Below, in pieces: positions 49,324 to 63,500 of a stretch of 64,000 nt of DNA. How positions within the stretch are numbered: position 1 is the stretch's first letter; every line of letters starts with the position of its first letter. The stretch is taken from the NCBI GenBank assembly GCA_942159475.1, contig OW804096.1, forward strand, positions 130,438,941 through 130,502,940, read 5' to 3'. The notes beneath the pieces were generated by a model. It was given only the letters and a program-made list of their open reading frames with translations. It was not told the DNA's origin and made no database searches. Source of the stretch: Sthenelais limicola. Its lineage: Eukaryota; Annelida; Polychaeta; Phyllodocida; Sigalionidae. Made by a program: the position numbers and the translations under genes.

Positions 49324-49844
49324 TCAATCGGATCCATGCATACCAGCATACCATGGCAAAAATAATATGAAGAAAGAACATAACAACATAGCTAGAAACA
49401 TGAACCCGAAAAACAATCGATCTAGTATAGTCACTATCTCCCTGCTTTCTTCCAGAAGCTGGGCCTCCGTACGTATACAAGAGATTTCAGTTTTGAGCGG
49501 CATCAGTGATGCCTCCTGCATATCAGAACTACTGTGGTCAATGGGGCTTGGCTCCTTGAACGACACTCCCGGTCGTTTTTTCATTGCTTCTCCAACTCGG
49601 ACATCTTTGATTACCCTCGCCTTCTCGAACAATACATCATTGTTAGCGTCAGAGGCACACATGTCGTTCGAGGAGCCACCCTTGTCATAGTTACGGTAGG
49701 AGTGCTTTCGTTTGCGCAGTAACAGGAACCTCCTCGTCCATCGTGGCAGTGGTTTTTCCTTACATCTGAAGTGGATGTTGATAATGAGCACTGTCCAGCA
49801 AATGGACAAGGCGACCAAGGTCATTATACACGTCAGGTACATGA
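49324..49844 (-). CDS. Exon: M3, cytoplasmic loop, M4 and stop of the nicotinic-like channel
   Basis: Acceptor TTATTTTCAG precedes 49844. The split Ile codon with the previous exon gives the expected Val-Leu-Ile junction before M3. M3 is residues 441-463 and ends Asn-Ile-His-Phe-Arg, a nicotinic signature. The cytoplasmic loop starts with basic residues, is rich in Ser/Asp/Lys, and ends in an amphipathic MA helix (Glu-Ala-x-Leu-Leu-Glu-Glu near 570) leading into M4 (583-603). The tail after M4 is nine residues. The preceding intron is 3.6 kb and full of repeats. Confidence 0.94.
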
Positions 49845-52800
49845 CTGAAAATAAATAGATGACAGACAATAAGAAACACATCTATGGAATCATTTAAGAC
49901 AGAACAGAGTATTAGGTATGTGTTGTAGGTCTATGCTCGCTTTGGTATTAGATAAAATACAGTAAATGGTGCAATATCGCTTTTGCCAAGTATCACTGCA
50001 CGAAAGTTGTACACAACTGTATGCGGATTGACAATTGTCTGGGAGTGCACCAAGTATAGCGGCACACTTTCTTCGGTTACTTCACGCCGTTAGCAACAGT
50101 CATAGTCATATGGGTCAGATTTTCAGAATATGTACAATTCAACTTCACCAATCCTCTCAAATAACCCCAATTACAGATGAAAATAAAGTTCAAAATACAG
50201 TTCAACCCAACCAGACAGATTGCTAGAATCAATGCAATGCTGGATGTATACTCGAATTTACCTAGTATTGACCAAATTGCAGCCTAATTTAGCACAATTT
50301 ACTAAATGTGTACAGCTGCCAATTGTACATTTTCTGAAAATCTGACCCTCATAAAGAGCAGATGAGGTGGGAGTTTTTGGAAGGCTTTTCACTGCACGAA
50401 AGTTGTACACAACTGTATGCGGATTGACAATTGGCTGGGAGTGCACCAAGTATAGCGGCACACTTTCTTTGGTTACTTCACGCCGTTAGCAACAGACATA
50501 GTCATATAAAGAGCAGATGAGGTGGGAGTTTTTGGAAGGCTTTTCCCTGCACGAAAGTTGTACACAACTGTATGCGGATTGACAATTGTCTGGGAGTGCA
50601 CCAAGTATAGCGGCACACTTTCTTTGGTTACTTCACGCCGTTAGCAACAGACATAGTCATATAAAGAGCAGATGAGGTGGGAGTTTTTGAAAGGCTGTTC
50701 ACTGCACGAAAATGGTTCACAACTGTATGCGTATTGACAATTTTCAGGGAGTGCACCAATGCACCAAGTATAGCGGCACACTTTCGTTGGTTGTTTCAAG
50801 CCGTTAGCAACAGTCATATTCATATCAGGAGCAGATGAGGTGGGAGTTTTTGAAAGGCTGCTCATTGCGGCACACTTAATGAATAGCCATAAACAACAAC
50901 ATTACGTATTTATAACCCAGATTGGGCGGTTCTATCTGGTTACAGGTTCTACAGTATCGTGTCATCTAACCATATCCTAATTAAAATAGCTTTGTGTAGT
51001 TTAAAGGGAATTAATTCAGAGTAGTGCTAGAAATCAGAATCGGTTAACAGATTATACTTAGTCACGTGACAAACATGTTCGGATATAGTTGCCTCTTACT
51101 AACGCCACTACAGGGCAGCACCTTATAGGGAGTTTTAGTCCATGTGGTTCAGTGAAGCGGCAGCAATACTAGATTGAAAATAATATACCCTGAAACATCA
51201 CTTAAGTCTTAGACTATTTGCTTTGTACTCACGTTATAAGAATAAGACAACTGTAAGGAGAATTAAGTGGCATGAAGTAGGCCTTTTAAATTTGGGGCAA
51301 GTTGTAATTTGTTGGTAGGAAATGACGTAATTTGATCAAAATATTATACATCAAAATAATCTATAATTATCTATATCCTCTAAATATAGTCCTGCACTAA
51401 GAGTGACACCCTTTTGGCCAATTGTTCAATTGAACGCCATCATTTGTTTTAAAATTCAAGAACGGTATCGGCTTTATGAACGGAACACGAATAGTTCTAC
51501 AGATCGGAAAAACAACTGTGAATGATCTATTATCACTTGGTGTCATTGAAAAATCAGATGAATCCTAAATCGAAAATTTTGGAAAAAGGAAGAGATTGTT
51601 TTAAGATGGATTTTTAACAGATTCTGTTATATGGGACTGGGAGCAGAACATGAGTAAACGTCAGCTGAAGAGGATAGCATACTGCGTATACATCCATATT
51701 CACGGTAGGGGGCACTGCAGTAGTTCTCAATCCTCCAAACACACTGTTGCCATTATATCCCCCAGATGGCCTTCACATGTGGGCTCAGACTGTGTCAGAC
51801 TGTATGATTGCAATATGAATAGAGATGTAAGAGTAAAATTTTAATCCACTGAACTCTTCCTTTGAACGCTTTGGAGGTGAAACATGGTTATAAGCTCACG
51901 AAGGCTTGCTATAGTATAGGGGTATATAATTTCTTATTATGTGGGACCCTTCCCAGGGACTTAAGTTATGGCCAGGCTAGACTGTTACTCACTGGGGTCA
52001 TGTCATCGAAGATACTTACTCAGAAAGGAAGCAAGAATATGTCAGAGTATAATTCATTAAATGCTTCAATCCTTTGGTCTGCTTTCCTTAACATATTTAT
52101 TGTGAATCACGTGAGGTACTTGAATTAGAGATGTATTGATAAATGATAAGTGTATTTGGTTTGCATCTTCATTCACCCTTTGAGGATCCCCATAAAGCAC
52201 ATATTCCATGGTTACTTCTCCATTCCACAGGTGCAAAACAGATAGAGATAAGAAGAAGAAGCATGAATTAGTTCTGAATGAAGTATTCTCCGCCAGAATG
52301 TTTACTTCAGAATGAACATTCTGCATATCGACTTCGTCTGTGCAAGATTTATATAAAAATGGAAGATTATATTATGTATAAAGGACAAAAATGTTACTGA
52401 ATGTGTTTTGCCTATACATCCTCAATGCAATTCCAAGCTGCAGCTTCGCTCATCTGTTACTTCTGTATACTCGGAATTAACACGATAAAACACTTGCTAA
52501 TTAAGTTTTCGCATTTTACTGAAACATTCGAGCCAAACACATCTGCAGCAAACGATTTAAATATTCCGAAAAAGGGGCAAAATAATAGGAATCATTTTGT
52601 AATAAATATTAAATGACACCATAATTTTATATTACATCAATTTAACTATAAAAATGAATTTTATGGAAATTATTTTTTTAAATGAATACATCAAGTTAAG
52701 AAGGATTGATGTCATGCTCAACGCATGGCAGCATTGCCAATTGGACTTTTTCAGATGAAATGCATGCCGAGCTCCAATAAAGGTAATGCAATCGTGGGAT

Positions 52801-55800
52801 TGCGTAGAACAAAACCTAATTTGGCACTTAACAGGTCTTAATACAATCCTTCTTTTACTTCTTTTATTGTTTTCGCTTAATGGATCTTCATCGCAAGAAA
52901 CCATATGCGATACAATTATTTTAAACAAATTCAACTGTGTTCTACGACTTCTGCGGATCCTTCAATTGGGAACTTAAAATCTTAAAGTTGCATTCCGAGC
53001 TAAATCGATCAAAATATATTTTTTCCATTCATTAATCATTTACCTTTCAGATAATTCAGTAATTTCAGTAATTCAGTAATTTCATCCTTTTGTCAAGAAT
53101 ATTTTATTTGGAAGTCCTGGTTAATTGACTTACGTAAGACAAGAGCATTTAAAGAACATGTGATGTACCATGTGAGCCGATTAACATCTTTTTAAAAAAA
53201 CATGCATCATTTACAAGAAAATACATAAATTGAAGCGGAGGAATATGGTAATTTAGGAATCCTGATTAATTTCCTCAGTTCTGAATGAGAAAACATAGAC
53301 AAATTTATTTAGGACTTCATCCTGGAAACTACAGATGGATGCTAACTATGAGGTATAACCGAGATAAATCTTTTTGGAGCGGAATTAGCAGGTGAAGCAG
53401 TTTTGATGGAAAGGAATCTGGGCTTTTTACATTCTTACTTAGAGGAAATGGGAGATTGTTTTACTTACTTAAGACAGGCACGTATAGAGATGTCCGTGGG
53501 ACTGTGTCAGCTATCATGATAAGGAATACTATGAATGATAAGAGTACTGATATCCCAGCTGATAGTCGTTCACCTTCGTCAGGCGGGACCCAGAATACAG
53601 CAAGCACCAACACAGATAGTAGCACGCATGGAGCTATGATATTCACAACGTAAAATACGTTTCTCCTCCGGATTTCAAAGGAAAACTTCACATGAGCATA
53701 ACTCGTCCCTGGGCAGCATGGCAGCTCTGCCTCCCCCCAACGCACAGATGTGCTCAAAAGTTCCCACTCTCCGTTCAGAGTATAATTGTCAGTGTTTACA
53801 TCACTGGAAATATTTGTCACATTCATCTTGGCCGAATGATACACCCAAGCACCGATGTTAATCTCACAATGTTGACGATCGAATGGGAAGTAATAAATAT
53901 TTATATCACAAGTTGTCCTGAAGTTGCCACCAGGCTCCCAATGCACTCTCCCATCGTAATAAACAACAGCACGAATTTTGGTAAAACCTTCCATTACTGT
54001 CTCTTCCGCCCTGTAAATAGAAACAGACTTATTAGAATCGTGGGCCTACGATACATATCTAATTAACATGCACATATCAATATTGGCTGAAAGGAAAGGG
54101 AGCTATTTTTATACCTTTGTTAAGTTGCGCCTATATAGATGTATACATAAATATGACGATTGTGTTGATTTATGTGGTGTTTAATTTAGTTTCCTTAAAC
54201 AACCGTTCGTCGTGACTGGAATAAAGCGTGACATGTGTATGTTTTTAACTGTATATTTTGCCACCCGTTATGCATTGCCATTATATTGAAATATGAAGGC
54301 ATAAATGCGACCCTTAACTCATACTGGGTTTTTTACCCTTACTGACGGGTAATATCAAGGATGCTTCATGGAATTGTGCTTCTGTTTTTAACAGAAATTC
54401 AGGTCTTTAACAGAAATTCAATTAGTCTTTATTTCAACGGAAATAAAATAAACCTTTATCATACCGGTTACACCAGGTAACACATTACTTGTTAAATAAA
54501 ACTTGAAAATAAGTATGTCCTCGTGTAAATGAAGAGTATACATACTCTTCATTTACACGAGGCCTACATCGAGAAGGTGATACATCCTTGTGACAATTCT
54601 CCCTACCATGAACCTGATTTTGTGCATTGTCCTCTGTGATCGAATAACGTTACAGGTCAGAGCCATTCTAGATGACACGTCATAATTATATGTATATTTT
54701 CTCCCATCAACATACTTTGCATACTACACATCAAAGATACTTAAGTATAGTATCTTTGTACACACATACTGGACCAAGTGCCTAAGATGTCCCCCCCCCC
54801 CCCACACACACACACACTGATAGCTTACCCGTTAATGACGGCTAATTCAGGCAACCACAAACGTTCAGCTCTAACAACGATTGATGTGACGTTATCGAAT
54901 TCAATGGGGTTCCACGTTAGGCGATCATCACGCCATTCCTGAAAGAAGATAGCAACATTCAGACGCCTTTCAACTGCCTTTAAAGGACAGGCTTGATAAT
55001 GTAAAAATAATTCTCATGAAGGTGTTACAACAGACCAGGCCAATGCCGAGACACATTTATAGGAATGCCTTCAATTATTCCGCGGTAACATCAGTTTCTA
55101 CTTATTTCACTTACCGCTATTACCATACCCATCGTAGTCAAGACCATGTTTTTCTCGTCCTAGACAGGGGGAGAAAAAGTAAAAGATGTCTTTTAACAGA
55201 TATTATGACTCAATCCATGAAATCGCATTATTCCGTTATATACGATGAAAGTGCTTTAATATGTTATTTCCTACTATACAGTGCTTCCTACTATATAATG
55301 CACTTGATTGCTGCACGCAACTGTATGTATCTGCGATACTTTGCAATGCGATACTTTGCAATTTAATGAGACAGAAGTAGACCTACCTGTCCTTAGTACA
55401 TCAATACACACATAAGTGAGGATGAAAGGGATGTAACTTTTATGAGGCAAATGACATTTGTATATATAAGCTTCCTTTAGCTAAGTAGCAACAAATATAA
55501 TATTATATTACTGTCAGTATCTGTTAGGATTATTCATAGGAACATTCATTTGATGGTAATGATAATCAAAGGATGAGTCTGGGGAAATAACAGGAAACAC
55601 AATGTAGTCTGTTTATAACCTTTACTCTACCTGTGTTGTTCCATTCTGGAATATTCAAAGTTCATCGGCTTTGATTATTATAGAAAAAGGAAATGCCAAA
55701 GGCCCACGCTCTATATACACGAGTTCTTCAGAATTAATGACCAATCTGCACATGTTGTCAAACGCATGCATCAATAGGGTAGATGAAATACTTCCCTACA

Positions 55801-58800
55801 GGGAGGGTGTAGGGTCTATGCCGGGAAAGGGACCATTCACATGTAGGCATGTTTTGTATAAATGATCCCTTGAGAATGGTCTCGCACTCACTAAGCTTCC
55901 ATGCGATTGGCATGACAGGGAATCAACATTATTGATAAATGAGTGCAAAATATGACTATTTGTCAACCCAACTGACCATGAAGGGAAGTCCTTGCGTATG
56001 ATATGAACGCCTTTTTGGCATGTTTTGGCAATGGAAAGCACTACCATGTCTACGTTATTCAGAACAATTTTCAATTTTCAATTGGAATTGGATTACTTTG
56101 TGACATCGAAATTCAATTACGCCAGGTACATGAACGTATTTTTTACTGTTAAATGCAGTTTCGCAACATAAGGAATTTATGTGATGAAATGGAAAGGAGT
56201 CACCACTAACTATAGATATGGGAAAGACACTGATATGGATTTTGAACTCATTGCACTCTGTTACCCTAAGACTACTCCTTAAACCTGAATTTAAAGAATA
56301 AACATTGGAAAAATTGATGAGATGTATAAAGGGCGTTTTGAACTAATTGCTATAAAGGTGTGAATCTACAGGCAAACTATTAGTTCCAATATCAATACAA
56401 TCAAGAATCAAGGATAAGCACAATTCTTGAGAAATTATTCATAGAACGGATGCATGGGTATACAATGACAGTTCTTGGAGGGTTATCTTCAAAATCTTCT
56501 CCATCACACCATTTAAACAACAGAGACGTGTTTGTCCAAAAACATATACCGATCTAGATTCACTGCTTACCTAAGATTTGACGCACTTTATCTTTTACCT
56601 TCTTTCTAACCACATACCCCCACTTACCAAATCTTGAATCCTGAGGAGGACGAACTGCAGCGTTACGGTGACTGTGGCATCCGACTTCCGGTTACCTCTT
56701 GCGTCAGGATCGTACTCCCGGAACAGGTTTTTGAGCATGCGCTCTTCGACCGGCCTGGCATTCGAATCAACGGCGGTGTCAGCTGACGGGTAGAGCACAG
56801 GGTATATCCCATTAGGATCGCCTGAAGGACGCGGTGACGTCACGTTACCAAGGGAAACAAACAGCGCACATCATAGGATAACTTATAAGACGGCACACAC
56901 ATGGTATAAAATATAATGGAGACCTAATCTATCTAAAGAAGGTATAATGATTATGATGCGGTACACTTATATGCGATGGATTTAGATGCAAAAATCATAT
57001 AAAAATAAATAAAGAAATCCTTTCATAAAGAAAAGAAAATAGATTAATAATGAGGTTAATAGGAAATTCATTAGACCAAAACATAACTGTTCCTCTTTCA
57101 TCAAACTTCGAAAAATGCAACCAGGAAGGAATATTTGGTAAAACAACTAAAGCTGCACTCTCATCTAAATTGACCAGAAATGTCTTGTCACAATTCCCAA
57201 AGTATTTGCAGTACTGGAAATGAGTAGATTTCGGTATTAAAAGTGAAAAAAAAAGATATTTGATCTTCCCAACATCCACTCCCCTTTCCTCTTTTTTGGG
57301 CATAGCTTTCCCGTTTTTTCTCAATAATCCCATACTTTAGATTATCCTACTTTCTTACACTAGTGATAGGTGAAAATGATTCTTAGCTTGTTCATAACAA
57401 CAGTCTTGATTTTATATGATAGACATCCTTACTTTGAGAAGAGGAAGATGAGTTACATGAACAAATATAGGATCTCGGTGTATGAACGAATTAGGTAACT
57501 AGAACAAGATTTCCTTTTAGACTAAGAAGGATAGGGCAGATTCTCCTGTGATATTTTACCCTCAGCTCTATGGGTATGGAAAGAATGGAACAAAATGTAG
57601 AAAAATATACTTTTGATCGTATTTATCTGAGAATGCAGCGTTAAAATGACTCAAATCAACGCATTAGAATGTCAATAAAATCGTAAAAATAACTCTCATG
57701 CCGTTATATGGTTAATCACACGTAGGTAAAATACATCGTGACAGTCATCTTAACTCAACATATTTTCATCTATACAAATATCTATGGAATCGGATGTGCG
57801 AGGACTAATGGATTACTTGATGGAACATGAAATAATGTGCATCGTGTTTTCCCAAACAACATAATTATTTATATATGATAAAATGTAACTCCAAAGTTCA
57901 GAACATACGTCAGTACACATGGGGACAAATCGTTAAGAATGTAACTTTAGCATACATGGACTGTTATTCGTGATGCTTAATGAAGCAAAGCTACCTTTTT
58001 CACAGATGTATCTGAGATAGTAGTTTTCAGGCAGGGTTCTTAGTTTCCACTGGGATGGTAAATGCTCAAGGACGAGATAGTGGCTGGTGTCACCATGACG
58101 TACTGGGGTGGCATCCATCTCTATCTCCATGGTAACCGGTTTTTCTCCAGCTGTGCACATAAAACGATATCACTTTATGAAATATAGACATGTTCCCACT
58201 AGGTTCGGGCATTAAACAAGATAGCATGAAGTGTTTAATGGTACTTTACTGGTTTTGACTTTGGGACTTGAGTTTATGCCTCGTCCCTATTGCTATGAAA
58301 GCCTTTTCTGAATAGCAATCTTTAGTGCGGAACAAATTCCGCCATTACTCTCCAATAGCTCACAATCAGAACTACCCGAGCGCTGGTTTATTTCATCACA
58401 TGCTAAAAGCTATGGCTATTAATATATGATGTTTCAGGATGAAAAGAAATATATGAATCGGCATCGAGTATATGGGACGGATTTGGGAACAAAAGCGAGG
58501 GTTCAAAGCAGGTGGTAATTAATTCAGGTAGAAGATTAGTTACAGTCGAAAGCATTAGATCACAATTGACATTTTGGGAAACATACTACAGATATATATC
58601 TAATGCAAAGTATCAGTCTGATTGTTGATTCCAGATAGAACCTGGCGTAAGTAGTGCATCTTTTACACACAATAACACTTCCTGATATAAAAGTCTCTTT
58701 TGGAGACAATATCGCACTGTTACTGTTTAAAGCATGCATAGAAATGCAAGTTGACGGGCCTTTGATGTATTTCGGACGAAGCACTTAGTTTTTTTGCGAT

Positions 58801-60500
58801 ATTCTGATCCCCTCACAATGACTGAAGCCATTTTCGAAAGTGAATAACCACAGTTATATCAATAGCAATTTACAATAGGCAGAATCCCAGCTCCTTAGTC
58901 TGAGAGACTCTCCTCTTTGCTTGGACTGCGTAATAACGTAACCATTAGAGCAGGCTAGACCAGGATTTATATGCAAATGTATCTGTCATTAATATAAGAT
59001 GATGGCAGTTTATTGAGCGGAGGCTTAAAGCTTTAAGGCATAGTATTCGCTGTTTCATGGGCTCCTATCGAAGACGGCCAAAAAGCAGATGGATAGCCAA
59101 TTTTAAAATTACCTTCGCGCTGGTGCAATCCCGCTGCTGAAAGTTTTTTGCATGTTCTTCTGCGAATTAACAACAGTGATGTATTTTCTTAATAATAACT
59201 TATTCAATATATCACATAAAGGATTTTATAAACAAGCTTAATCAAGTAATAATTGGGGCGGGCAATCCAGAATGACCTCCCTCTTGGATTCAGCGGATGG
59301 AAGAGTAACTGCATGCACCGGCTTCACAGATATGCTAGCTTTAGTTTCTAATTATTTCGAGGATATAATAGTGCCCCCGGAGACCTGTTCAAATTAAGTT
59401 TATGCAGAAAACATTACTAGACACTATTCTCACCTTCATCAGCCATTTCCCACACCCAAGTTCCATCTTTACGTCTGCCGCCAGTCCACCACTGCTCCTG
59501 GGCGAATTTCTGGCCCTGACTCTCGACGAGTGAGCGGATGCGTTCCTGAGAGTGTTATTGTCACCAAACATATAAATAATTCATGTTAGCCGTTGGTAAT
59601 GTTAGATAAAGATAAATGTTTATCGCTATGGCTGGGAAACATTATGCCTTTAATTCTATCTTCTCGGAAGGAAGGTTATTCTTAGCGCATGCTAATGGAC
59701 ACTCATTCACTAATACGCCCCCCTAATGCCAACATCTATTATGAGAAATGTTTGCTTTTTTCAGTCGAAATGGCAACACAATTATTAACAATGACAAGCA
59801 GTGGTGCAATATATCCCAATGCGATTTTTACTTTTCCGAAGTTATAATGATAGCCTTACATGTTTATTTTTAATACTGAAAAACAATTCCATATGGGACC
59901 ACACTCTTGAGTGATTATTCCCTTTTTTTTTAATATGAATTTTTGTGCCCCCCCCCCCCCCCCCACCACCATACTATATATCTTATTTCTTGTCAATTGT
60001 TATAATTTCTTTTTAAATAACTAGATGCAGGGCCACACTACTGTAAGTGATTATCCCTAGCATGAATTACTACCCGACATCATGTGTAATAGTTGGTGAA
60101 TCTATCTGGAGAGACTGGGTACTTTTAAAATCCTGGAGTAGCGGGAAGGATCTCCCCAGTATAAATAATATCAATTAAAAAAAAAGAAGAAAGTTTATCG
60201 TAGCAACATCCAGAACTTCCACAGCATAATAGATAAACAGTACTGTGTGATACGAGAAGTATCACAGCGACTATAATCAAGAATGATTGTTAAGCAGAGC
60301 GCATGCCTTCATACAAAATACACACATATTATATGTTCTTACCTTAAGAAAATTTAACTCCTCCTCCCCATTGATGGCCACCAGTGTTCCCCCCATCGAC
60401 CGACATATGACACTCGCAGCTGGCCTGGTGGTGTCCACCTCTCGGTCCGCGTCAATAGCAAAGAGATAAGCGGACCCTCCAAATCGCTCCCATTTATTCT
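49324..60500 (-). CDS. C-type lectin-like domain fused to a nicotinic-type Cys-loop channel subunit (8 exons, 5' end missing)
   Basis: Joined minus-strand exons: 60500-60343, 59545-59434, 58150-57995, 56821-56628, 55159-55115, 54938-54829, 54010-53469, 49844-49324. They total 1838 nt, giving 612 residues and a TGA stop at 49326-49324. All introns are GT-AG and phases match at every junction. Residues 1-142 form a C-type lectin-like domain, 143-165 a linker, 166-375 the extracellular ligand-binding domain, about 377-399 M1, 408-427 M2, 441-463 M3, then a cytoplasmic loop of roughly 115 residues and M4 at about 583-603 with a short outside tail. By family knowledge such subunits assemble as pentamers in the plasma membrane. 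Glu at M2 -1' (E406) and absence of the anion-channel Pro-Ala signature indicate a cation pore. A signal peptide is expected but its exon was not found. Ligand and partners are unknown. The alternative, two neighbouring genes, would need an unseen start exon in the 57994-56822 interval. Confidence 0.87.
49996..50866. repeat. 155-bp tandem repeat, four units, first unit split by a MITE
   Basis: Units begin with CTGCACGAAA at 49996, 50392, 50547 and 50702. Units 2 and 3 have an exact 155-bp period. Unit 1 is 241 bp longer because a MITE interrupts it. The last unit is the most diverged and has a small internal duplication (CACCAATGCACCAA). The repeat lies wholly within an intron and has no coding reading. 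Confidence 0.9.
50112..50348. mobile_element. MITE, 237 bp, with 28-bp terminal inverted repeats
   Basis: The left end GGGTCAGATTTTCAGAATAT... and the right end reverse-complement to the same 28-base sequence with one mismatch. The interior matches the element at 11119-11353, including CTTCACCAATCCTCTCAAAT and the AAATGTGTACAGCTGCCAAT region. It has no coding capacity. The intact neighbouring tandem units serve as empty sites. TCATA flanks both sides if the element is taken to start one base earlier, so the exact target duplication is unresolved. Confidence 0.85.
53041..53090. repeat. Short tandem AATTCAGT/AATTTCAGT repeat
   Basis: TAATTCAGTAATTTCAGTAA and a further unit, within the last intron of the lectin-channel gene. 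Confidence 0.7.
53469..54010 (-). CDS. Exon: Cys-loop, loops B and C, M1 and M2 of the nicotinic-like channel
   Basis: Acceptor TTCTATTTACAG precedes 54010 and donor GTAAGTAA follows 53469. The exon enters in phase 2 and leaves in phase 1. Residues 260-439 contain the 13-residue Cys-loop (Cys293 to Cys307, with Phe-Pro-Phe-Asp inside), loop B Trp314, loop C with vicinal Cys357-Cys358 and Tyr363, M1 (377-399, including Pro386) and M2. M2 has Glu406 at -1', Ser409 at 2', Ser413 at 6', Leu416 at 9' and Asp427 at 20', typical of cation channels. The vicinal cysteines mark an alpha-type principal face. Possible N-glycosylation sites are Asn322, Asn325 and Asn334. Confidence 0.95.
54519..54562. repeat. 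Perfect 21-bp inverted repeat with 2-base spacer
   Basis: The arm 54519-54539 (starting CCTCGTGTAAATGAAGAGTA) is exactly reverse-complementary to 54542-54562, with AC between. It lies in the intron between the 110-bp exon and the Cys-loop exon. Confidence 0.95.
54735..54761. repeat. Short inverted repeat AAAGATACT/AGTATCTTT
   Basis: Nine-base arms around a seven-base spacer, in the same intron as the perfect palindrome. Modest on its own in AT-rich DNA. Confidence 0.5.
54791..54818. repeat. C13 tract followed by (AC)n
   Basis: Thirteen C then about 15 bases of alternating AC. On the gene strand this is (GT)n followed by a G run, starting about 10 bases after the 5' splice site of the 110-bp exon. 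Confidence 0.95.
54829..54938 (-). CDS. Exon: 110-bp ligand-binding-domain exon (loops D and A)
   Basis: Acceptor TTCTTTCAG precedes 54938 and donor GG|GTAAGC ends the exon at 54829. It enters in phase 0 and leaves in phase 2. Residues 223-258 carry the loop D tryptophan (Trp224, in Trp-Arg-Asp-Asp-Arg-Leu-x-Trp) and the loop A motif Trp250-Leu-Pro-Glu. The 110-bp length equals the conserved exon 4 of vertebrate nicotinic genes. The position equivalent to Tyr93 of muscle alpha subunits is Ile257. Asn238-Val-Thr is a possible N-glycosylation site. Confidence 0.93.
55115..55159 (-). CDS. Exon: 45-bp ligand-binding-domain exon
   Basis: The short exon lies between acceptor CCTGTCTAG and donor GTAAGTG, phase 0 on both sides. 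It encodes residues 208-222, beginning Asp-Glu-Lys-Asn-x-Val-Leu-Thr-Thr. This is the strongly conserved stretch after strand 1 in nicotinic subunits. Vertebrate CHRN genes also carry a 45-bp exon here, which makes this recognition firm despite its size. Confidence 0.9.
56628..56821 (-). CDS. Exon: linker and start of the nicotinic ligand-binding domain
   Basis: Acceptor CGTCCTTCAG precedes 56821 and donor GTAAGTGG follows Leu207. The exon enters in phase 1, exactly as the preceding lectin exon leaves, and exits in phase 0. Residues 144-164 are a Pro/Asp/Ser linker. From Arg165 the sequence matches the N-terminal helix of Cys-loop subunits (Glu168-Glu-Arg-Met-Leu ... Phe176, Tyr179), followed by strand 1 (191-207, alternating Val/Thr/Leu). 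The frame has no ATG ahead of the helix. The first Met (171) lies inside it, so this exon cannot be a normal first exon. Confidence 0.92.
57995..58150 (-). CDS. Exon: end of the C-type lectin-like domain
   Basis: Acceptor TGTGCACAG precedes 58150 and donor AAAAAG|GTAGCT ends the exon at 57995. It enters and leaves in phase 1. Residues 91-142 hold the long-loop region and the closing strands; Tyr138-Ile-Cys140-Glu-Lys is the classical domain end. Two things are unusual. The inner disulfide cysteines (expected near Tyr115 and Leu130) are absent. There is also no EPN/QPD triplet, and the WND triplet reads Trp125-Lys-Leu, so canonical calcium-dependent sugar binding is unlikely. Read-through without splicing would stop after 20 more codons; that is the main alternative to the fusion. 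Confidence 0.86.
59434..59545 (-). CDS. Exon: middle of the C-type lectin-like domain (WxGG...WVW core)
   Basis: Acceptor ACTCTCAG precedes 59545 and donor GTGAGAAT follows 59434. The exon enters in phase 0 and leaves in phase 1. Residues 54-90 carry helix 2 (Ile56 to Phe67) and the hydrophobic core signature of the fold, the Trp-Trp-Thr-Gly-Gly run at 72-76 and Trp83-Val-Trp85. These correspond to the WIGL and WxW positions of C-type lectin domains. The visible long open frame over this region is a shadow; the true frame is set by the flanking splice phases. Confidence 0.88.
59948..59964. repeat. C17 homopolymer
   Basis: Seventeen consecutive C within the intron between the first two lectin exons. 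The exact length may be affected by sequencing. Confidence 0.9.
60343..60500 (-). CDS. Exon: first part of the C-type lectin-like domain
   Basis: Acceptor ...CTCTCCACAG precedes 60500 and donor GTAAGAAC follows 60343. The exon enters in phase 1 (its first two bases complete a Glu codon) and leaves in phase 0. Residues 1-53 show the opening of a C-type lectin fold: Trp4, the Phe-Gly-Gly-Ser-x-Tyr strand at 7-12, then helix 1 with Ala28-Ala29, Cys33, Gly37-Gly38, Leu40 and a Glu-rich end at 46-48 leading to Phe51-Leu52. Cys33 is the expected partner of Cys140 near the domain end. Phase-1 entry is the usual junction between a signal peptide or linker exon and an extracellular domain, so at least one coding exon lies upstream. 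Confidence 0.88.
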
Positions 60501-63500
60501 CTGTGGAGAGAGCAAAAATCAAAGGGGAATGTGTAAGCCTCACACAATTCTAGCTCATAGAAGAAACACTATTAGCTTGAGGCAATGCCGCAATCTGAAT
60601 CCATAATTGGTTGGCGCATACAATACACATATATGTGCATATATATAACTTATATGTTGTGAATTCAGAGGTTAATTCCTAAAAAAAAGATATTTAAGAG
60701 TATCAAGATGAAGTTATGATGAATACCTAGATATGCCTCACATACCATGGCGCTGTAATGTGATGTGATGTATAATTCAAACAACAACTACAATTCACTT
60801 GCATGATTAGGTTTTATGTGAATAAATGTATAATATTTCCAATATTACTTTGTAAAAGTACTGTGCTTTTCATCAATTGAGTCTGAGAAAATTACATACA
60901 TGTAAAATGATATGACTGAAAAACAATTTAAGATAATTAAATTGGAAACTGTGAATGTATTAACGTTTCAGATTTCATCATTGGTTGTGTGTGTTTTATG
61001 CCGTAAAATAGGGTCCAGCTACAGCTTCATTGTCTCTCACCTCGGTAATCACAACTATGAGGGCCCCAAATAGGATCAATTATAGATTACATCATATCCT
61101 ATCTCATCAATAATTCTAAACTATTGCATCTCAAAACCATGGTATTCGAAATATGAATACAATCAGAACATATGCTACATACATCTAGAGAAGAACTTCC
61201 TAACGAATGGATTCAGAATGAAAATGTCTGATTTATCCCAACCGAAATTCATTTTTTGTGGAGGAAAATCGCTTGTCGGAAAAACGATATTGATTTCCGC
61301 ATATAACTTGCTCATGATATATAAATATATATAGGCCCTAGAATAGTATCAATTGCTTGAAAGTTATGCTCCTAAAATAAGTCAAATACAGGAAGTTCAC
61401 ATCGTTCTTTCATCAGCACCATTGTCAGAGAAACGCAATCTAAGACTGCGTATAATCTACCTCCAAAACTGTCCTTGCCAAAAGGCTTGTCCCTCACAAT
61501 GTCTAATAATAGCATTATCTGCGACTTCAATGGAGTCAATAACAATTTACTATTCATCAGTTGCAGTTATGTCCCCCACTCTAATCCCTGTATGAACAGC
61601 CTCTGGCATCAGCAGCGGAAACATTTTCGGGGTATAACAGCACAGGGAATAGAATCCACGATATCGTAAAGACTCTCCTTTCAGAGGACTTCCCACCAAA
61701 TCAACGTCAACATGTTTTTGGTACTTTCATTCAATATTTTATCACTCCCTGTAGTTTTCAAAAAAAATAATAGCGGCACTAGCCATTAATTTAGTAAATG
61801 GTTTATTTCGATCCCATGCTGTTTTATGCGACAGGAGCTCTCATTACTTTCGTACTGTCCTCTCTACTAATGAGTACTCTTTACTACTTCATTTCCATAC
61901 CTTCTTTCTCATTTGTCAACCTTCTACGAGTTTGCCGCTTTCAATCTACCCTTACATACGCCAATTCTTCTTCAAATTCTCAAAAACATCATAGAGTATT
62001 CTTTTAGTATCCTTTCTATGGCTCAAAAAGAAATAAAACTTATATAGAATGACCATGAAACTCTTATTCACGTCAGTTATTAATTCCCCTTCTTTGTAAC
62101 ACCTTTTGTGATTAGCATTGATGTCAGTATATGTCAGTCATTTTAATGCTTTATTATACGTGGTTTCATTTAGGGCTTGTAATTAGATGCATATCTGACA
62201 TATCCGTATAATATGAAATTCATTTAGAAATACCAAACTGGCACACCCCACCCACCCCCAAATATGCATACTACTCGTAGGATATACAGGGTGTTCCACT
62301 GTAGAAAACCTAGCTCTGATGGCATATATTTATCATTCAAAGGACATTGACACTTCCCTTACCCAGTCTGCTGGCAGTCCAAACCTTGTAGATGCCAATA
62401 GTCACCTAAAGACATCATAGGTCGTAAAGTTGTTGCTTACCACACGCTTCTGACATTTTGCAAAATGCCTTGTTTACTAAAGAATAGTAATCAAGCCATA
62501 TGACAGTACTGGAATACAGTGTAGCCTGGAAAGCTGAAATGTGTGCGCATCGCCGTGGCAGCAATTGTTGCCCCCGCGGGTATCATAAGGGCATATTGGG
62601 TAGGAATGTAGACTGTCATTCGCGCTGGATATGTGGCGCGTTATCATGACACGTTTAGGATTCAAAAAGAGACCGCCAGGAGAGAATTCCCTGTTTCCAT
62701 TACACTGTATATATGTGTTCCTGTTCTCACAAACGGCCAGGCTCTGTTAACATAGCTTTGCTATCAGCCTTTTAGACAATAACAACACCTATTCTTCTGC
62801 TTCGAACAGTTTGTGATCCAATCATGTGCATTTATAAGGTTAAGAATATTGATTGATTTTACTTTTTTCTTCGTGAATTCTCTACATATTTTAAGAATAT
62901 TTGATTTTCAATGTTTAGATCCCAATGCAAACGTGATAACATTTGAAAATTATCATCTTACCCTAGGGAAAAACAAAAGCAATTCGAAATGTCCTTCTAC
63001 AAGCAGGACATCAAGTATTGAATGCGAGGGAAACATGTCTATCCGCTCCCTGAGTCATCATGCAGCGTACTAGCCGTCGTACTATGGTGGGAAATCTAAC
63101 CATGATGAATTCATGCGAAGTACATCCTTGTTTTTCGAATTTAATTTCCTTTTGAAGAAGAAAAAGAAAAACCTGCCTGTGTTTCATACTCAGTAGATCA
63201 GGTTCTGTGTAAGAAGCAAGTTCAAATCGAACAGAAATGTTATAATGGTTCATATGTTATTGCTGAAGCTTATCAAGACACCTTGAGGCCAAGCAATTGG
63301 TTAAAGGATTGACATCTCTTATTAGACCCTATTGTGGACATTGATTTGTACCGCAAGTCATAATTATAAAGCTAGTTAGATAGCACAATGTATGTCAAAA
63401 ACGGATATAGGATTCTTTTAAAGAGGGGGTGCATAAACTTGGGTTACCGAGTAAAAGACTATAAATGATATCTAATAAATATCATAATAATATTCAAACA

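Follow-up and report, generated by a model that had tools for sequence, protein, structure and literature searches.

A predicted channel subunit joining a C-type lectin domain to a nicotinic-type Cys-loop channel in the annelid Sthenelais limicola

The stretch of DNA analysed here, hereafter the window, comprises 64,000 nucleotides of the genome of the annelid Sthenelais limicola (assembly GCA_942159475.1, contig OW804096.1, which is C3 in our numbering; C3:130438941-130502940). On its minus strand, between positions 60500 and 49324, three exons encoding a C-type lectin domain (CTLD) are followed, in order, by five exons of a nicotinic-type Cys-loop channel. The best-supported reading of this arrangement, called gene A, is that of a single gene in which lectin and channel are fused. 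Exon ends were set by GT-AG sites and reading frame (Table 1). GT-AG sites and compatible phases are found at all seven junctions (the exons start in phases 1,0,1,1,0,0,2,1), and the joined exons form one open frame of 611 residues and a stop. A preliminary description of this DNA had proposed eight ordered exons on one strand with matching phases, which is borne out at essentially the same positions. Its single frame also stands, although its count of 612 residues had included the stop. It had described three lectin exons, and one correction has to be made: the first of them, L1, starts in phase 1, which leaves the lectin incomplete at the 5' end and implies a further upstream exon for gene A.

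A Pfam scan of the joined protein, for which the preliminary description had advised an InterPro run, places the lectin and channel domains above their cut-offs. Lectin_C is matched over residues 27-141 with 30.2 bits (cut-off 22.6; profile 7-107 of 107), Neur_chan_LBD (PF02931) over residues 167-374 with 172.2 bits (cut-off 26) and Neur_chan_memb (PF02932) over residues 382-598 with 110 bits (cut-off 28.1). With a codon score model trained on the channel exons of gene A and of its two paralogues, B and C, described below, the in-frame scores of the three lectin exons (0.40, 0.31 and 0.20) exceed the 99th percentile (0.19) of 3000 random stop-free stretches of 52 codons taken upstream; the lectin exons thus look coding. 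For L2, which counts 37 codons, the frames are not distinctive, since a second stop-free frame scores 0.24 and the third 0.38, the latter with three stops. Both parts of gene A, lectin and channel, look like coding sequence. Together, L1-L3 make up a cassette of 426 nt, divisible by three, with phase 1 at both ends.

Table 1. Features of gene A and of its tandem paralogues. Positions are those of the window, except where preceded by C3:, which denotes the contig; C1 to C5 in brackets are labels of channel exons.
Feature	Position	Strand	Description
CTLD exon L1	60343..60500	(-)	phase 1 in, 0 out; GT-AG; open frame; codon score 0.40; inside the Lectin_C match
CTLD exon L2	59434..59545	(-)	phase 0 in, 1 out; WWTGG...DGTWVW core; GT-AG; open frame; codon score 0.31
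CTLD exon L3	57995..58150	(-)	phase 1 in, 1 out; C-terminal YICEK; donor AAG|GTAGCT; codon score 0.20
Lectin-to-channel intron	56822..57994	(-)	1173 bp
Channel exon 2 (C1)	56628..56821	(-)	phase 1 in, 0 out; ~25-residue linker GDPNGIYPVLYPSADTAVDSNARPV, then N-terminal helix
Channel exon 3 (C2)	55115..55159	(-)	45 nt; size as in paralogues B and C
Channel exon 4 (C3)	54829..54938	(-)	110 nt; size as in paralogues B and C
Channel exon 5 (C4)	53469..54010	(-)	Cys-loop C-13-C, vicinal CC, M1, M2 with GE
Channel exon 6 (C5)	49324..49844	(-)	M3, cytoplasmic loop, M4, stop
AATAAA	49302..49307	(-)	~20 nt past the channel stop
Paralogue B	C3:130446084-130418960	same as A	intact, 575 aa, six exons
Predicted signal-peptide exon of B	C3:130446084-130445955 (window 7144-7015)	(-)	ends in phase 1; 12.2 kb ahead of exon 2; MRVARIVCLFSVALLILSTVNA...
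Paralogue C	C3:130337321-130292340	same as A	intact, 481 aa, six exons
Predicted signal-peptide exon of C	C3:130337321-130337252	(-)	ends in phase 1; 28.5 kb ahead of exon 2

Two further features lie within the introns of gene A. Between L2 and L3, a 47-nt exon-like stretch (59159-59113, minus strand) has an acceptor and a donor and would run from phase 1 to 0; it was rejected as an exon because it throws L3 out of frame, with a stop after LEKNRLPWR, and is possibly a cryptic or regulatory exon. The long intron preceding the last channel exon contains a 155-bp tandem repeat in 3.2 copies (50351-50859).

Paralogues B and C came up on the same strand when the joined protein was compared with 264 kb by tblastn, and start 42 and 151 kb downstream of the gene A stop. 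Their channel exons have the same phases as those of gene A, including the two short exons 3 and 4 of identical size. In both paralogues a predicted signal-peptide exon is joined to exon 2 in phase 1, which puts the lectin block of gene A at the position of the first intron. The ancestral plan of the array is likely to have been a signal exon, a long phase-1 intron and then exon 2, and the symmetric 426-nt block of gene A has the geometry of a shuffled exon cassette, as in exon shuffling. A CTLD was undetected in B or C by tblastn of the lectin part of gene A up to E 50, a threshold that a much diverged CTLD could still escape. Paralogue B, of which the other exons lie outside the window, carries a strikingly basic stretch, KGKNKGGKKKGERKKGNRERGNRPRKNRNRGK, after the signal exon and before the channel. 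Of the 150 channel exon places listed genome-wide, 68 have another one on the same strand at a distance of 3-150 kb, some of these perhaps being exons of one gene.

The closest relatives among the matches listed in protein searches are annelid sequences resembling nicotinic acetylcholine receptors (nAChRs), with 40-45% identity over the channel: P0001 and P0004 from Helobdella, P0002 from Capitella, P0003 from Dimorphilus and P0005 from Paralvinella. In a tree of 11 rows, genes A, B and C and P0001-P0005 form one clade with support 100/100. Within it, gene A, whose branch is long (1.71), groups with Dimorphilus P0003 at a support of 89/87, which is not firm; if this pairing is right, either the Sthenelais side acquired the lectin or Dimorphilus lost it. 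Gene A thus shares channel identity and clade with these annelid orphan nAChR-like subunits, and its exon layout with B and C, but differs from them in its CTLD, undetected in all the others. Another difference is the hydrophobic segment, resembling a signal, with which P0003, B and C open. The remaining four are uninformative about the N-terminus, since P0001 has nothing ahead of the helix and the records of P0002, P0004 and P0005 are marked as partial. The preliminary description had advised looking for other proteins combining PF00059 with Neur_chan_LBD, and none appears among the matches listed. In these searches of 5.8 billion proteins, PF00059 is absent from the precomputed domains of the 14 and 17 proteins listed, and when residues 1-165 were used for scoring, none of the 483 candidates reached E<=1. 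Scoring in the first and third searches was confined to the 7996 candidates with the most words in common, so that a distant fusion could escape.

Within its own genome the CTLD of gene A matches, at E<=1, only its own exons (3 of 3 matches), and thus gives no sign of having been copied recently from a lectin gene. The solved structures that match it best are those of multi-lectin receptors, namely the yolk sac IgY receptor (E 2.7e-7) and the PLA2 receptor (8.7e-5). The genome holds at least 142 CTLD exon matches and at least 152 channel-exon matches. A screen for a second lectin-channel pair, covering the best 150 of 522 and the best 150 of 400 candidates, compared 142 CTLD places with 150 listed channel places and gave 17 pairs within 150 kb, with the lectin upstream on the same strand in three of them (at 22.6, 75.9 and 89.7 kb). 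In the nearest of these (22.6 kb, contig C1), the lectin exon ends, by reading, in phase 0 ahead of the last motif of the domain, and the channel piece has about 90 open residues. This screen is insensitive, given the number of candidates scored and a CTLD list that lacks the lectin exons of the window itself.

The intron between lectin and channel bears on whether they belong to one gene. As the preliminary description stated, no in-frame ATG precedes the N-terminal helix of channel exon 2, and this extends to the open frame back to 56870. In the 1173-bp gap, no ATG-started hydrophobic exon has a phase-1 donor scoring above -3.5 (the best donor scores -3.5), the donors of gene A scoring between 2.1 and 6.5. 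Neither AATAAA nor ATTAAA occurs in this gap, about 2.2 being expected from composition, in contrast to the AATAAA that lies about 20 nt past the channel stop. Moreover, reading the locus as two genes requires two first exons that were not found, and reading it as one gene requires a single one. Phases that match, a symmetric cassette of 426 nt where a phase-1 first intron would lie, and a gap with neither a usable signal exon nor a poly(A) signal make a single fused gene the best-supported reading, and we regard a transcribed lectin-channel fusion, with the predicted splicing, as probable. The fusion put forward in the preliminary description is partly supported in this sense, its argument from phase and its choice of refuting interval being the weaker parts. 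It had held that a signal exon between 57994 and 56822 would speak for a separate channel gene. No usable one lies there, but the signal exons of B and C are 12.2 and 28.5 kb upstream of exon 2, which makes that interval too narrow.

Several observations weigh against the fusion. The donor of L3 at the junction is the weakest of the seven (2.1, the next one scoring 2.6), and composition alone gives a chance of about 12% (Poisson) that the gap holds no poly(A) signal. The phase-1 match at the lectin-channel boundary is weak evidence, since B and C use phase 1 there too. No fused relative is found among the protein matches listed, and P0003, the nearest to gene A in the tree, lacks a CTLD and opens with a plain hydrophobic segment. 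In addition, no first exon of gene A came to light across 123 kb upstream of L1 (about 83 kb and a further 40 kb) when this stretch was scanned for hydrophobic exons that begin with ATG and are followed by a phase-1 donor. The same scan had found the signal exons of B and C, which hold the two top scores over 294 kb of minus strand. The best phase-1 candidate for gene A scores 9.9, less than the best plus-strand control (11.0, from a larger region), and for this reason the candidates at 62325-62256, 68234-68171 and 94104-94032 are not claimed. Candidates of other phases, at 72692-72606 (phase 0) and 65639-65557 (phase 2), each score 10.6 and would require an intermediate exon; a strict search over about 54 kb for such an exon ending in phase 1 gave none.

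As for other content of this upstream region, none of ten open reading frames scanned against Pfam, which is not a full gene search, rises above cut-off. An upstream open reading frame at 62477-62746, cysteine-rich by eye, has no Pfam match. By reading, no other conserved gene was recognised in the 123 kb before a long terminal repeat (LTR) retroelement at about 111 kb, which has two long open frames (C3:130610556-130617208, minus strand, loci L034-L035). Ankyrin-like repeats follow, by reading, on the plus strand from C3:130619160 onward, about 120 kb upstream.

The strongest alternative is that of two genes, in which a small secreted CTLD gene would be nested in the channel gene or lie just upstream of it, the channel having a distant signal exon as in B and C, and the lectin message ending by read-through past 57995. 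Such read-through adds merely 19 residues, SFASLSITNNSPCMLKLHS, before a stop, and the weak L3 donor fits this picture. The length of the first introns of B and C (12.2 and 28.5 kb) leaves room for a nested gene, so that a lectin gene nested in intron 1, or skipped from it, is compatible with an empty gap, and the abundance of CTLD and channel-exon matches in the genome means that a chance neighbour is not rare. Against this stand the absence of AATAAA and ATTAAA from the 1173 bp past L3, the need for two unfound first exons rather than one, and the exact phase 1-1 geometry of the block, whose length is a multiple of three. We consider two genes rather unlikely.

A variant of the fusion is that the cassette is optional, gene A yielding both lectin-bearing and lectin-free channel subunits. 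The 426 nt with phase 1 on both sides keep the frame whether included or skipped, so that skipping would yield an in-frame subunit without lectin, and a weak L3 donor suits regulated splicing; an upstream exon able to join both L1 and channel exon 2 was, however, not found in 123 kb, and we hold this variant to be quite improbable. A further reading, in which gene A has lost its 5' part and with it the ability to make a surface channel, and the lectin exons are bystanders, would accord with the signal exon not found in 123 kb and with the long branch (1.71), but is highly improbable given eight open exons, GT-AG sites, a poly(A) signal and the conservation of the Cys-loop and M2.

The residues of the channel part suggest what gene A may respond to. 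The Cys-loop, C-13-C (CDINIYYFPFDRQHC), and the vicinal CC of loop C (LPCCPGTSY) are present. Aligned with alpha4, and under the usual loop names, the aromatic box for acetylcholine retains two of its five residues, the loop B Trp and the second loop C Tyr; at the other three positions, Tyr of loop A is replaced by Ile, Trp of loop D by Met and the first Tyr of loop C by Leu. With three positions changed, acetylcholine is probably not the main ligand, and judged from its residues the channel is probably an orphan receptor. The M2 border retains GE, which we read as cation-selective.

C-type lectin domains have two conserved disulphides, formed by four cysteines, and those that bind sugars through calcium carry an EPN or QPD motif together with WND. 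The 141-residue domain of gene A has only the outer cysteine pair, C32 and C139, and by reading lacks EPN, QPD and WND. The 'immune-lectin type' named in the preliminary description is thus unsupported, and the residues favour binding of a protein or of matrix over binding of sugar through calcium.

On balance, we rather favour one gene whose predicted subunit bears a C-type lectin domain atop a nicotinic-type cation channel, the phase 1-1 cassette having probably entered the first intron of the channel gene by exon shuffling. The lectin exons would be spliced to the channel, and the upstream exon, not found so far, would supply the signal peptide. Each lectin domain (five if the channel is homomeric) may sit on its linker of about 25 residues over the N-terminal helix, so that together they would crown the vestibule. 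If a partner, protein or matrix, binds to this crown, the extracellular domain could shift and so open, prime or anchor the channel. This is proposed by analogy with two published cases of such a domain acting on a channel. Nanobodies at the alpha7 apex bind in a symmetric pentameric assembly, one of the two described driving an agonist-bound conformation, and the CTL domain of polycystin-1 is required for activating its channel, according to the available parts of these articles (PMC10520083, PMC7728438). Apical lectin control of an orphan cation channel, as a full mechanism, commands less confidence than the fusion itself. A bolder version, in which the acetylcholine pocket has decayed and a five-CTLD crown encoded by a splice-switchable optional cassette senses a partner protein, matrix or microbial surface, making a lectin-gated channel, is unlikely.

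Partial counterparts of such a subunit are known. Animal Cys-loop channels are usually drawn as a ligand-binding domain plus a membrane domain; polycystin-1 has a channel fold unrelated to theirs, and the N-terminal domain of the pentameric channel DeCLIC is not known to be a lectin domain. The polycystin-1 family, like predicted gene A, has a C-type lectin domain in a channel subunit, but it also has many other ectodomains, as described in the accessible part of that work (PMC7728438). DeCLIC is bacterial; like the predicted gene A product it combines a pentameric channel with an accessory N-terminal domain, presented as modulatory in the accessible text (PMC9897478, PMC12664993). The cephalopod chemotactile receptors are likewise derived from nAChRs and activated by molecules other than acetylcholine, but their new specificity lies in the old pocket, and the available text mentions no added domain (PMC11526382).

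A survey that covers the nAChRs of lophotrochozoans along with those of other animals, available in part, offers a comparison: it counts 33 combinations of domains, with dynamin and GAIN named among the additional ones (PMC6896357). The exact layout of ligand-binding and membrane domains is found there in 28 of 28 zebrafish and 16 of 17 human nAChR genes, and other functional domains, unnamed in the table, in 0 of 129 Capitella and 2 of 52 Helobdella nAChRs (PMC6896357). Gene A resembles the expanded lophotrochozoan nAChRs in its annelid/mollusc expansion, its tandem array and the extra domain borne by some members; those named are dynamin and GAIN rather than a lectin, and the word 'lectin' is absent from the accessible main text (PMC6896357). 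It is also absent from two papers on Alvinella Cys-loop receptors (PMC10338036, PMC4801368). In the literature searched, mostly articles outside subscription and with InterPro not included, no lectin was found paired with Cys-loop, pentameric-channel, nicotinic or Neur_chan_LBD. Within these literature and protein searches, the lectin-nicotinic channel architecture is undescribed, and it belongs as a variant to a family of channels already known. For Sthenelais limicola, a poly(A) RNA-seq run, ERR10123685, is described in a data paper available in part (PMC10352628).

If the fusion is true, the grafting of a lectin onto the outer tip of the subunit by exon shuffling would represent a new way of altering the sensing of such a channel or its place of anchoring. 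The neighbours B and C, in which a lectin is undetected, serve as ready comparisons for gene A.

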